64,000 nucleotides of DNA from Thermasporomyces composti (GTDB lineage: Bacteria; Actinomycetota; Actinomycetes; Propionibacteriales; Actinopolymorphaceae), in assembly GCF_003386795.1 (NCBI RefSeq), contig NZ_QTUC01000001.1:558001-622000 (forward strand), read 5' to 3'. The position numbers and the translations under genes are program-made. Position 1 is the first letter of the stretch. Each line of letters begins with the position of its first letter. The notes beneath the pieces were generated by a model that saw only the letters and a list, made by a program, of their open reading frames with translations, searched no databases and was not told the DNA's origin. Below are positions 18,887-34,242 of this stretch, one piece after another.

Positions 18887-18915
18887 TCGCCACGACCGCG
18901 GCACGCGAGTAGGAT
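18887..18915 (+). promoter_or_regulatory. Promoter of the thrS-paralogue leader
   Basis: TCGCCA (18887-18892), a 17-base spacer, TAGGAT (18910-18915). The -10 is good and the -35 matches four of six bases. Transcription would begin within a base or two of the leader-peptide ATG at 18923. Confidence 0.5.
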
Positions 18916-18922
18916 CCCGCCC

Positions 18923-19018
18923 ATGGCATCCGCGCGTGCCCGACTCGGCGCTCAGCCGGGTCTCGCCGTCACGACGACGCCGCACGCCGCTTCCGGCGGT
19001 GCGGCGGCTGTCACGTGA
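18923..19018 (+). CDS. Thr-rich leader peptide of a threonine attenuator
   Basis: A 31-residue open frame, MASARARLGAQPGLAVTTTP then HAASGGAAAVT, ending at TGA 19016-19018. Three consecutive Thr codons (ACG, 18971-18979) and a final Thr codon lie just before a chain of strong hairpins and upstream of a threonyl-tRNA synthetase gene. This matches the logic of leader-peptide attenuation: a ribosome stalled on Thr codons would cover the first hairpin (18980-19004) and change downstream folding. The promoter spacing suggests a leaderless transcript. The peptide itself probably has no other function. Confidence 0.6.
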   Translation: MASARARLGAQPGLAVTTTPHAASGGAAAVT

Positions 19019-19080
19019 CCACGTTCTGACGGCCGCGCGGACGGCCCCGGGAGCGATCCCGGGGCCGCTGGGGTCGCTCC
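18980..19080 (+). promoter_or_regulatory. Mutually exclusive hairpins of the thrS-paralogue attenuator
   Basis: Hairpin 1: CCGCAC (18980-18985) with GTGCGG (18999-19004), plus an inner GCCG/CGGC pair. Hairpin 2: GGCCG (19031-19035) with CGGCC (19042-19046). Hairpin 3, terminator-like: GGCCCCGGGA (19043-19052), loop GCGA, TCCCGGGGCC (19057-19066), a perfect ten-pair stem. Hairpin 4: GGAGCGA (19050-19056) with TCGCTCC (19074-19080). Hairpin 3 shares bases with both 2 and 4, so they cannot coexist. There is no U-run after hairpin 3, so termination could be factor-assisted, or the control could be at translation. Confidence 0.55.
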
Positions 19081-19114
19081 TGCTCGACAGAACCCGACGA
19101 CGAAGGAGCACCCC

Positions 19115-20548
19115 ATGAGTCTTCGATCCCCGTCCCCCGCGGTCGGCGACCTCACCCGTCTCGGTCGCCGACAGTCGTCCGGTCGCCCGTCCGACCAGCG
19201 GTCACCCGATCATCGGCGGCTCGGTCGAGAGCTCGGGATCTTCACCGGAGACGAGCTGATCGGCGCGGGTTTTCCGCTCTGGCTGCCGGACGGCGCCACC
19301 GTCATCGCCGAGCTCGAGCGGTTCGTCATCGAGCTCGAGCGGCGATCCGGGTACCGCCACGTCCGGACCCCACCGGTGGGGCGGCGGGAGCTGTACGAGC
19401 GATCGGGCCACTGGGCCCACTTCGCGGCCGACATGTTCCCTCCGATCCCCGTCGGCGGCGGTCGTGGGCTGAGTCCAGGAAGCGGCGCGGACGACAGGAC
19501 CGGGGAGAACGACCGTGGCGCCGGCGACGACACCTCACTGTCAGGGAAGGATCACGGGCGCGACGGAGCCCGGGAGGATCTGGTCCTGCGGCCCGTGCTC
19601 TGCCCGCACCACGCCCTCGTCTACCGATCTCGCCTGCGCAGCCACCGCGACCTGCCGCTCCGCGTGGGCGAGTGCGGCCAGATGTTCCGCATGGAGCGCT
19701 CCGGGGTGGTCACCGGGCTCAGCCGGGTCCGTTGCATCAACCTCAACGACGGGCACATCTTCTGCGCGCCGGAGCAGGCGGTCGACGAGGTGGCGCGGGT
19801 CCTCGCCCTGATCGACGAGGCGTACGACGTCCTCGGGATCGAGGCCGCGTATCTGCGGCTGTCGCTGCGCGGCCCGGACGAGGATGGGATGTCCTTCGCC
19901 CCTGGGGACGCCATGTGGCAGGCGGCGGAGGGGATCCTGCGGCAGACCCTGGACCGGCATGGTCTCCCCTTCCAGGAGGCACCCGGCGAGGCGGCCTTCT
20001 ACGGGCCCAAGATCGACGTCCAGGTGTACGACGTCCAGGGGCGGGAGTTCACCCTGTCCACCGTCCAGGTCGACCTGTACCAGCCGCAGCGGTTCGAGCT
20101 CGAGTTCGTCGCGCCGGACGGCAGCCGGAGCCGGCCGGTCATGGTGCACCGCAGCGTGCTGGCGTCCATGGAGCGCATGGTGGCGTTCCTGCTGGAGCGC
20201 TACGCCGGCGCGCTCCCGCCGTGGTTGGCTCCGCTCCAGGTGCTCGTGCTGCCCGTCAGCGCGGACGAGCTCGAGTGGGCGTGCGCGGTGGCGCGGATGG
20301 CGGAGGCCGCCGGCCTCCGCGTCGACGTCGACGACCGGGAGGAGAGCCTGGCCGCCCGCATCCGGGACGCGCACGTGGCGAAGGTGCCGTACGTCGCGGT
20401 CGTGGGTCCGACCGAGGTGGCGTCCGGCGCGGTCGCTCCCCGCCTCCGCGGTGGCCGGAACGCGGGCGTCCTCCCCGCCGACCGCTTCGTCGCCGCCGTC
20501 CGCGCGGTCGTGGCCACCCGCCGTTCCGACGTCACCCTCGACGTGTGA
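19115..20548 (+). CDS. Short threonyl-tRNA synthetase paralogue lacking TGS and editing domains
   Basis: 477 residues, against about 640-690 for standard ThrRS. The class II core and the C-terminal anticodon-binding domain (LQVLVLPVSADELEWACAVA to the end) are present; the N-terminal TGS and editing domains are missing. Zinc ligands are kept: Cys 163 (VLCPHH), His 214 (NDGHIFC) and His 345 (VMVHRSVL). Motif 2 Arg 192 (MFRMERSG) is also kept. The usual FTQDDAH is INLNDGH, so Gln is replaced by Leu. A Gly/Asp-rich insertion (111-153) precedes the first zinc ligand. CGAAGGAG precedes ATG 19115. It may be a starvation-induced or inhibitor-resistant ThrRS; a full-length thrS must exist elsewhere (inference). 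Confidence 0.85.
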   Translation: MSLRSPSPAVGDLTRLGRRQSSGRPSDQRSPDHRRLGRELGIFTGDELIGAGFPLWLPDGATVIAELERFVIELERRSGYRHVRTPPVGRRELYERSGHWAHFAADMFPPIPVGGGRGLSPGSGADDRTGENDRGAGDDTSLSGKDHGRDGAREDLVLRPVLCPHHALVYRSRLRSHRDLPLRVGECGQMFRMERSGVVTGLSRVRCINLNDGHIFCAPEQAVDEVARVLALIDEAYDVLGIEAAYLRLSLRGPDEDGMSFAPGDAMWQAAEGILRQTLDRHGLPFQEAPGEAAFYGPKIDVQVYDVQGREFTLSTVQVDLYQPQRFELEFVAPDGSRSRPVMVHRSVLASMERMVAFLLERYAGALPPWLAPLQVLVLPVSADELEWACAVARMAEAAGLRVDVDDREESLAARIRDAHVAKVPYVAVVGPTEVASGAVAPRLRGGRNAGVLPADRFVAAVRAVVATRRSDVTLDV

Positions 20549-30518: not shown

Positions 30519-31868
30519 TCAGCGCACAGCCGACGCGAACCGCTCCGGGTCGTCGAACGGTCCGACCACCGCCAGCGACGGGGTCGCGGTGAGCAGCTCT
30601 CGCGCGACCGCGCGGACATCGTCCAGGGTCACCGCGTCGATCCGGCGCAGGATCTCGTCGACGCTCAACAGCTCACCGTAGACGAGTTCGGCCTTGGCCA
30701 GGCGCGACATGCGAGAGCCGGTGTCCTCCAACCCCAGCACCAGCGAGCCGCGCATCTGACCTTTCCCTCGCGCGAGCTCCTCCTCGGTGATGCCGTGCTC
30801 GGCGACCTTGGCCAACTCCTCCCGGCACAGCTTGAGCACCTCGTCGGCCTTGCTCGGCAGGCAGCCGGCGTAGACGCCGAACATGCCGGCGTCCGCGTAG
30901 TGGGAGACGAAGGAATAGACCGAGTACGCCAGGCCCCGCTTCTCGCGAATCTCCTGGAACAGCCGGCTCGACATGCCGCCGCCGAGCGCGGCGTTGAGCA
31001 CGCCCAGCACGAACCGCCGTTCGTCCGTGCGAATCAACCCGGGGACACCGAGCACGAGGTTCACCTGCTCGGTCGACCGGGAGACCAGACCCACCTCGCC
31101 ATGCCGTACGGACGGCCCCGCGCCACCGACGCGTGGCGGCGCCGGGGAGGCCTCGCCGTCCAGCGAAGCGCCGAACGCCTCGCGGACCAGCCGAACCACT
31201 TTCCGGTGGTCGACGTTGCCAGCCGCGGACACCACCGTGACCGGAGGTCGGTACCGGCGCCGGTAGTACGTGACCACCTGGCGGCGCGTGAGCGCCTGAA
31301 TGGACTCCACCGTGCCGAGAATCGGCCGGCCCAGGGGCGAGTCACCCCACAGCTGCCGCGCGAAGACGTCGTGCACGGCATCGGACGGGTCGTCCTCGTG
31401 CATGGCGATCTCCTCGAGGATGACGCCCCGCTCGCTCTCCACGTCCGCGGAGGCGAGGACGGAGGAGGTCACCATGTCGCAGACGACGTCCACGGCCAAG
31501 GGGAGGTCCGTGTCGAGCACCCTGGCGTAGTAGCAGGTGTACTCCTTGGTGGTGAAGGCGTTCATCTCGCCGCCCACCGCGTCGATCGCCGAGGAGATCT
31601 CCAGGGCGTCGCGCCGCTTGGTGCCCTTGAACAGCAGGTGCTCCAGGTAGTGGCTGGCGCCTGCGAGCGAAGGTGTCTCGTCCCGCGACCCCACGCCCAC
31701 CCAGACACCGAAGGTCACCGAGCGCACCTGCGGCATCGCCTCGGTGACGACACGGAGTCCACCCGGCAAGACCGTCCGGCGGACGATGCCGCCGTCCTCC
31801 TCCGTGAGCAGGGTCCTGGTCGTGCCGGGTGGTTGACTCGTGCGAAGCCGAAGGGAACGCGGGCTCAC
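30519..31868 (-). CDS. M16-family zinc peptidase
   Basis: 449 residues. Inverted zinc motif HYLEH (HxxEH, 73-77) with a downstream Glu in [12 protein letters not shown]. This is the processing-peptidase-like subfamily found next to pnp in many actinobacteria. It has no signal peptide and is probably cytoplasmic. GTG 31868 overlaps the pnp stop by four bases (GTGA), so it is coupled to pnp. Confidence 0.93.
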
Positions 31869-34072
31869 TTCTTGCGGGGCTTGTTGGAATCGTCGAGGAC
31901 GGGCACGAGGGACAGCTTGCCACGTTCGTCGATCTCGCCGATCTCCACCTGCAGCTTGTCACCAACCTTGAGGACGTCCTCGACGTTCTCGACCCGCTTA
32001 CCACCCGACAGCGCGCGCAACTTGGAGATGTGCAGCAGCCCGTCCCGGCCCGGCACCAAGGAGATGAACGCGCCGAAGTTCGTGGTCTTGACCACCGTGC
32101 CGAGGTAGCGTTCGCCGACCTCCGGCATCGCCGGGGTCGCGATGCCCGCGATCATGGCGCGCGCCGCCTCCACCGACTCGCCGTCGACAGCGCCGATGAA
32201 GATCGTGCCGTCGTCCTCGATGGTGATCTCGGCACCGGTGTCGTCCTGGATCTGGTTGATGACCTTGCCCTTCGGCCCGATCACCTCGCCGATCTTGTCC
32301 ACCGGGATCTTCATCGTGAGGATGCGCGGCGCGTACGGCGACATCTCCGCCGGCGCGGAGATCGCCTTCTCCATCACGCCGAGGATCGTCAGCCGAGCGT
32401 CCCGCGCCTGCCGCAGCGCCGACGCCAGCACCGACGCCGGGATGCCGTCGAGCTTGGTGTCCAGCTGCAGCGCCGTGATGAAGTCCCGAGTGCCGGCGAC
32501 CTTGAAGTCCATGTCGCCGAACGCGTCCTCAGCACCGAGGATGTCGGTCAGCGTGACGTACCTGGTCTCGCCGTCGACCTCGTCGCTGATGAGCCCCATC
32601 GCGATACCGGCAACTGGCGCCTTCAGCGGTACCCCAGCGCTGAGCAGGGACAGTGTCGAGGCGCAAACCGAACCCATCGAGGTCGAGCCGTTGGAGCCGA
32701 TCGCCTCCGAAACCTGGCGGATGGCGTACGGGAACTCCTCACGGGACGGGAGGACGGGCACCAGCGCCCGCTCGGCGAGCGCGCCGTGACCGATCTCGCG
32801 CCGCTTCGGTGAGCCGACGCGTCCGACCTCACCGGTCGAGTACGGCGGCATGTTGTAGTTGTGCATGTAGCGCTTGGTGGTGTCCTCGGCCAAGGTCAGG
32901 CCGATGCGACGCTCCATCGACAGCATGTTGAGCGTCGTGACACCGAGGATCTGGGTCTCACCGCGCTCGAACAGCGCCGAGCCGTGGACCCGGGGCACCA
33001 CATTGACCTCCGCCGCCAGCGGACGGATGTCGGTCGGGCCACGACCGTCGATGCGGACGCCTTCCCGCAGCACCCGGTCGCGGACCAGCTTCTTGGTCAG
33101 CGCACGCAGCGCCGCAGCGATCTCCTTCTCGCGGCCCTCGAAGTCGGCGCCGAGACGCTCCAGGGCCAGCGCCTTGACCTCGTCGAGGCGGTCCTCCCGC
33201 TCGGCCTTCTTCGAGATCGTCAGCGCCTCAGCGAGCTCGGACTGCACCGCCTGAGACACCGCCTCGTAGACGTCGTCCTCGTAGTCGTTGAAGAGCGGGA
33301 ACTCCGCGACCGGCTTGGCGGCCTTCTCGGCGAGCTTGGCCTGGGTCTGGCACATGACGCGGATCGGCGCCTTCGCGGCCTCCAGGCCCTCGGCCACGAC
33401 CTCCTCAGTCGGCGCTTGACGGCCGGACTGGACGAGGTTCCAGGTCGCCTCGGTGGACTCCGCCTCGACCATCATGATCGCGACGTCGCCGTCCTCGAGC
33501 AGCCGCCCGGCCACCACCATGTCGAACACGGCGTTCTCGAGCTCACTGCGCCGCGGGAACGCCACCCACTCGTTGTCGATCAAGGCCACCCGGACCGCGC
33601 CGACCGGGCCGGAGAACGGGAGGCCGGCGAGCTGGGTGGAGGCTGACGCGGCGTTGATCGCGAGGACGTCGTAGATGGCGTCCGGGTGCAGCGCCAGCAC
33701 CGTGACGATGATCTGCACCTCGTTGCGCAGACCCTTGACGAACGACGGCCGCAGCGGCCGGTCGATCAGTCGGCAGGTCAAGATCGCGTCCTCGCTGGGC
33801 CGGCCCTCGCGACGGAACACCGAGCCGGGGATCTTGCCGGCCGCGTAGCTGCGCTCCTCGACGTCGACCGTCAGCGGGAAGAAGTCGAACTGATCTCTGG
33901 GCTGCTTGCTCGCCGACGTCGCCGACAAGACCATCGTCTCGTCGTCGAGGTAGGCGACGGCCGAGCCTGCCGCCTGCTGGGCGAGCCGCCCGGTCTCGAA
34001 ACGAATCTTGCGAGGGCCGAAGCGGCCGTTGTCGATGACCGCCTCGACGCTGTGAATACCGGGACCCTCCAC
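31865..34072 (-). CDS. pnp: Polynucleotide phosphorylase
   Basis: 735 residues. A phosphorolytic 3'-5' exoribonuclease and guanosine-phosphate-linked RNA turnover enzyme. Two RNase PH domains ([20 protein letters not shown] in the first, [20 protein letters not shown] in the second), the KH domain ([16 protein letters not shown]) and the S1 domain ([20 protein letters not shown]) are all recognisable, with the usual length. GTG 34072 is preceded by AGGAGGG. It lies downstream of rpsO with a stable hairpin between them. Confidence 0.96.
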
Positions 34073-34242
34073 TGGGCGCCCTCCTCATGGTCGGGGAGCG
34101 TCGGCGAACCCAGGGTAGGAAGCGAAGCCGGTCTTCGATCGAGGCGCTCGGGACGCAGCCGTCAGCGGACAGCCCGAGGGCCACTACCGAGGACCGGCGA
34201 GCTCTCTGCCAGTGGTCGCCGACCGCTCCTGCTGTTGTGTGA

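Follow-up and report, generated by a model that had tools for sequence, protein, structure and literature searches.

Our analysis has identified a regulatory element in front of a second, short threonyl-tRNA synthetase (ThrRS) gene of Thermasporomyces composti. Judged from its sequence, this element is very probably an attenuator of the ribosome-mediated (leader-peptide) type, by which the auxiliary ThrRS is controlled in response to charged tRNA-Thr. It is located in a stretch of 64,000 nucleotides, here called the window (positions 558,001 to 622,000 of contig NZ_QTUC01000001.1). The element combines a short reading frame containing three consecutive threonine codons, a promoter-like box at the distance expected for a leaderless transcript, and a series of alternative helices that extend to the ribosome-binding site (SD) of the synthetase gene (Table 1).

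Table 1. Features of the leader region and the downstream gene (positions in the window).
Feature	Position	Strand	Sequence	Remarks
-10-like box	18910..18915	+	TAGGAT	7 nt 5' of the leader ATG; predicts a leaderless transcript
Leader reading frame	18923..19018	+	MASARARLGAQPGLAVTTTPHAASGGAAAVT	31 codons and TGA; contains Thr-Thr-Thr-Pro
Putative regulatory codons	18971..18979	+	ACG-ACG-ACG	
Helix 1:2	18980..19004	+	CCGCACGCCG-CUUC-CGGCGGUGCGG	From the fold; directly 3' of the Thr codons
Region 2, putative antiterminator 5' strand	18989..18996	+	GCUUCCGG	Pairs 8/8 with 19047-19054
Helix 3:4, terminator-like hairpin	19043..19066	+	GGCCCCGGGA-GCGA-UCCCGGGGCC	10 pairs; without U-tract
Region 3	19047..19054	+	CCGGGAGC	Common to 2:3, 3:4 and X:X'
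X, SD mimic	19049..19056	+	GGGAGCGA	Loop and upper part of the 5' arm of helix 3:4
X', complement of X and of SD	19074..19081	+	UCGCUCCU	Just 5' of the SD
SD-sequestering hairpin	19070..19114	+	GGGGU-C-GCUCCU : AGGAGC-ACCCC	From the window fold; 11-pair helix
Short second ThrRS gene	19115..20548	+		Catalytic and anticodon-binding domains; TIGR00418, domain content

The gene product matches TIGR00418 with 422.6 bits (cut-off 383.65) and consists of a class II core plus an anticodon-binding domain, without a TGS or editing domain. Since the genome has a full-length ThrRS gene at another locus, the gene at 19115-20548 is indeed the second threonyl-tRNA synthetase that the first-pass annotation, made from the letters of the DNA, had placed downstream of the leader. 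The full-length gene has no Thr-rich leader in the 400 nt upstream of its open frame. In an alignment, the three zinc-ligand positions of the short ThrRS appear to be kept. Residues of about 112-152 (window 19448-19570) form an insertion of some 40 residues in the catalytic domain that is rich in Gly and Asp, is mostly missing in the relatives, and splits the HMM match in two. When genome contigs were scanned with the single protein, the matches were archaeal relatives only.

By analogy with other systems (see below), the short ThrRS is likely a spare enzyme that is induced by stress or by an inhibitor. The more specific idea of a borrelidin-resistant second ThrRS was dropped. At the position aligned with L489 of the E. 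coli ThrRS, a residue of the borrelidin site, 83 of the 88 short enzymes (the genes of loci L001, L005-L030 and L071-L142) have Gln, and 13 of 16 full-length enzymes had Leu at first count. Gln was then found at this position in several further full-length ThrRS and is thus not diagnostic, so that the L489-aligned residue gives no support for inhibitor resistance of the short enzyme.

The leader of 31 codons with ACG-ACG-ACG and the strong hairpin right after the Thr codons had both been claimed from the sequence, and both were recovered. In the genes of the window, ACG and ACC account for 41% and 51% of the Thr codons, respectively. The genome contains 43 copies of the 12-mer ACGACGACGCCG; its evidential weight therefore lies in its conservation rather than in its mere presence. 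This frequency, together with the ease with which GC-rich DNA folds, would speak for a chance Thr-rich reading frame followed by ordinary GC-rich hairpins; yet the element is conserved in several families and also reaches other classes, and with the covariation and the promoter geometry (see below) this leaves the chance explanation a practically negligible likelihood. The fold of the 195-nt leader has an energy of -120.2 kcal/mol as compared to -93.6 +- 4.4 kcal/mol for dinucleotide shuffles (z -6.1; 0/200). Helices 1:2, 2:3 and 3:4 are mutually exclusive, with region 3 taking part in both 2:3 and 3:4. The terminator-like stem of ten pairs had been proposed to overlap two alternative stems, and it does overlap with both region 2:region 3 and X:X'; its likeness to a terminator is incomplete, since no U-run follows the hairpin and a terminator scan found none. 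The partner of the SD in the window fold is GCUCCU (19076-19081) rather than the ACG codons. A candidate pairing between CGUCGU 3' of the hairpin and the ACG codons was rejected, since it is not kept across lineages.

Orthologues were collected by a protein search of the relatives and then of the class, and short ThrRS were found in several families. The upstream DNA was examined for all intact loci, which gave 86 distinct leaders and two more from a further family that the first motif had missed. A short reading frame with Thr-Thr-Thr precedes the gene in each of these 86 + 2 cases. Loci L071-L097 are a biased sample because they were found by the DNA pattern of the leader; however, L001, L005-L025, L027-L030, L098-L113 and L115-L142 were found by the protein alone and show the same Thr-Thr-Thr leader. 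The three Thr positions are ACG in 85, 84 and 86 of the 86 leaders, and CCG follows in 85. This near-fixation of ACG suggests that a particular tRNA-Thr is sensed. Moreover, TANNNT is present 6-7 nt 5' of the in-frame leader start in 86/86 leaders, and at this spacing to the two other frames, which served as control, in 0 and 4. Conservation of the Thr codons and stems in orthologous leaders was the test that the first-pass annotation had set for itself, and the outcome is positive: Thr-Thr-Thr is found at every intact locus, and compensatory changes are seen in the stems.

Three side observations were made at these loci. First, the short ThrRS gene of one relative (G180:C442:18105-19031) contains two in-frame stop codons, due to either pseudogene formation or a sequencing error, and has an intact leader. 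Second, in most families (L006-L030, L071-L142) the leader start AGCGCGC (Met-Gln/Lys-Arg-Ala) is complementary to the leader end GCGCGCU (Ala-Arg-stop), and the conserved MQRA...VPAR peptide ends may thus reflect an RNA helix; this complementarity was not seen in the leader of the window. Third, a near-threshold match to the TPP riboswitch (50 bits, gathering threshold 54.3) is located close to the ThrRS gene of L106 (1257-1380, minus strand).

Outside the start codon, the open frame and the three Thr codons, the leader peptide varies, and this bears on the idea that the RNA is the binding site of ThrRS itself or of another protein, with the leader reading frame being incidental. Such autoregulation has a precedent, as the E. 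coli ThrRS represses its own thrS mRNA, and the element is highly conserved as RNA. Nevertheless, we consider a protein-binding site very unlikely: every leader retains a start codon in leaderless position, an uninterrupted frame and the three Thr codons even though the peptide varies, no Rfam family matches the element, and the short ThrRS lacks the N-terminal domains that the E. coli enzyme uses to bind its operator.

A T-box, or another tRNA-binding or small-molecule riboswitch, is even less probable. In Bacillus, ThrRS genes are regulated by T-boxes, and the T-box of actinobacterial ileS targets the SD (PMC1262725); however, the conserved unpaired nucleotides of the element are the Thr codons, and neither the window nor seven orthologous loci gave a T-box match, even in a permissive E-value search. 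The statement of the first-pass annotation that no T-box is visible thus holds at the sensitivity of Rfam for these sequences. The same window contains an Actino-pnp RNA (RF01688, 60.9 bits; 34127-34198, minus strand), directly upstream of a minus-strand reading frame of 735 amino acids (31865-34072) that presumably encodes polynucleotide phosphorylase. A covariance model of the element itself gave one strong match per carrier genome (E about 1e-6 or better), located upstream of the short ThrRS gene, and weaker matches that look like chance. The model also detected L155 and L162 outside its source class, and in both a TTTP leader precedes ThrRS.

Two lines of evidence support the helices. First, in an alignment of 42 diverse leaders, helix 1:2, helix 3:4 and the SD sequestor together have 80.8% of cells paired as compared to at most 55.5% when slid, and 18 pairs with two-sided change as compared to 11.6 after shuffling. 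In these leaders the main sequestor helix has two-sided change at 9 of 10 pairs, and helix 3:4 is kept with two-sided changes. Helix 1:2 has equivalents in other lineages (GCCGG:CCGGC, GUCGC:GCGAC, CCGCC:GGCGG). For X:X', 84.6% of the cells are paired, with 22 two-sided cells versus 8.9 after shuffling. Second, in a permutation across loci that is independent of the 42-leader alignment, native X:X' pairings scored z -12.1 for all 86 leaders and -9.0 for the 30 leaders with different X, with 0/5000 permutations as good; since kinship of the loci inflates such scores, reversed-sequence controls were included, and these gave z -2.6 and -1.6. The corresponding values for X':SD are z -7.1 and -5.5 (0/5000), with controls at -1.65 and -0.1. 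How the three segments change together is illustrated by GGAGCGA / UCGCUCC / AGGAGC in the window and GCAAGUG / CACUUGC / GCAAGG in L136. The pairings between X, X' and the SD are thus strongly supported.

For helix 2:3, covariation showed no excess over shuffles; this helix is nearly invariant in most families, and permutation and shuffle counts are therefore uninformative for it. When lineages are compared, however, both strands of the helix differ: the window has GCUUCCGG:CCGGGAGC, L011 has ACUUCCGG:CCGGGAGU and L162 has GAUCCGG:CCGGGUC, and CGUCCCGG:CCGGGGCG is found elsewhere. Among seven hand-picked lineage types, the native 2:3 pair is the best in its row or at most 0.1 kcal/mol off the best. 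In folding with penalties, 3:4 beats 2:3, and 2:3 beats X:X': when 3:4 was penalised, 2:3 formed in 85 of 86 predictions and occupied much of X, and when both were penalised, X:X' formed in 61 of 86.

At which step does the element act? The hairpin 3:4 of the window has no U-tract, and at least four consecutive T at the hairpin are present in 8 of 86 leaders, which makes intrinsic termination doubtful; control may therefore lie partly or wholly at translation initiation. Probably, translation start is a second target of the switch, or replaces termination as its target, by way of the sequestered SD. In the strict form of this idea, translation initiation would be the only target: 3:4 would hold X without terminating, and the leader ribosome would set X' to X or to the SD. 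The X/X'/SD covariation, our strongest signal, fits well with this possibility, as does the missing U-tract of the window and the thrL-thrS region of Streptomyces lividans, for which the authors describe one hairpin without a U-rich stretch and call termination unclear (PMC8079986). Still, we consider it rather unlikely that termination plays no part: T is twice as frequent at the foot of the hairpin as in the remaining spacer (0.28 versus 0.14), and good U-runs are found in some lineages (L011, L019, L024). Moreover, the folding calculations gave a constant SD accessibility: constrained folding with 2:3 or 3:4 enforced made no difference, and the mean over the 86 leaders was unchanged between the penalised states. 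Tentatively, we propose a two-level attenuator as a possible solution, in which one stall in the leader would control both transcription and translation: since X copies the SD sequence, the choice between terminator and antiterminator would be passed to X', which blocks or spares the SD.

An attenuator of this kind would work as follows. The transcript would begin at the start codon of the leader itself. If Thr-tRNA is sufficient, the ribosome would reach the stop codon and cover region 2, so that region 3 pairs with region 4 in the hairpin, X' pairs with the SD, and expression is low. If Thr-tRNA is short, we infer that the ribosome stalls on the ACG codons and covers region 1, leaving region 2 free; as deduced from the sequences, region 2 starts 17-18 nt beyond the first Thr codon (18 nt in the window), which would fit a stalled ribosome of the usual footprint that covers only region 1. 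The free region 2 would pair with region 3, the hairpin would be blocked, and transcription would go on. Finally, in the hairpin-free state X would capture X' and the SD would be freed. That X:X' has this freeing effect on the SD is our guess, and the sign of the effect of this relay on the SD is thus put forward as a hypothesis.

The element has a precedent. RNA-seq of S. lividans TK24 has shown a leaderless thrL, MKRVRPFLETTPGFVPAR, in front of thrS, which was reported briefly (PMC8079986, Table 4). This very peptide, with the same hairpin, is also encoded in front of the short ThrRS of L185 and L186, two genomes of one genus that is probably Streptomyces, and we conclude that thrL-thrS and the element of the window are homologous. 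Both have a leaderless Thr leader before ThrRS, and the TTPxxVPAR end of thrL is common with other leaders; in contrast, thrL has two Thr codons rather than three, and the paper gives no alternative helices, SD sequestor or relatives (PMC8079986). The breadth across actinobacteria, the near-fixed ACG codons, the universal leaderless start and the X/X'/SD relay are new. Thus, what was a single line in a table for one Streptomyces strain can now be described as a widely conserved regulatory element whose architecture is defined, and the relay makes it possible to test whether one stall controls two steps.

The first-pass annotation had regarded leader-peptide attenuation of synthetase genes as rare in actinobacteria. 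It is not that rare: a 2005 survey predicted trpS and leuS attenuators and reported none for threonine (PMC1262725), and attenuated alaS, thrS, trpS and leuS have been reported in S. lividans (PMC8079986). A precedent counts against the attenuator reading of the thrS leader: the ilvB and leuA leaders of actinobacteria look like attenuators, yet their codon mutants do not behave as in classical attenuation (PMC1262725). Like the element of the window, the LEU element of leuA (PMC1262725) combines a leader peptide with alternative or pseudoknot-like helices extending to the SD; there it is the Leu codons that pair with the SD, whereas here it is the separate segment X'. The ThrRS T2 of Anabaena, although Zur-controlled, zinc-responsive and free of an attenuator, is likewise a second, editing-poor ThrRS that is induced under stress (PMC4787780). 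As the spare enzyme studied here has no editing domain, its induction could raise Ser-for-Thr errors, which would be measurable.

In Bacillus subtilis, T-boxes reportedly control both ThrRS genes, thrS and thrZ (Putzer, 1992). There as well, a spare ThrRS is expressed when Thr-tRNA is short; unlike the attenuator proposed here, the T-box senses uncharged tRNA directly and needs no leader peptide. Our results support a general pattern in which actinobacteria hold spare synthetases in reserve, silenced by leader-peptide attenuators until either the main enzyme or its amino acid fails. The closest experimental parallel is the auxiliary, indolmycin-resistant TrpRS of Streptomyces coelicolor, whose gene is said to be under ribosome-mediated transcriptional attenuation (Vecchione and Sello, 2010). 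Compared by the title of that study only, the two systems differ in the amino acid, tryptophan there and threonine here, and in the antibiotic resistance shown for TrpRS, but they have the same regulatory logic: a second synthetase controlled by leader-peptide attenuation.
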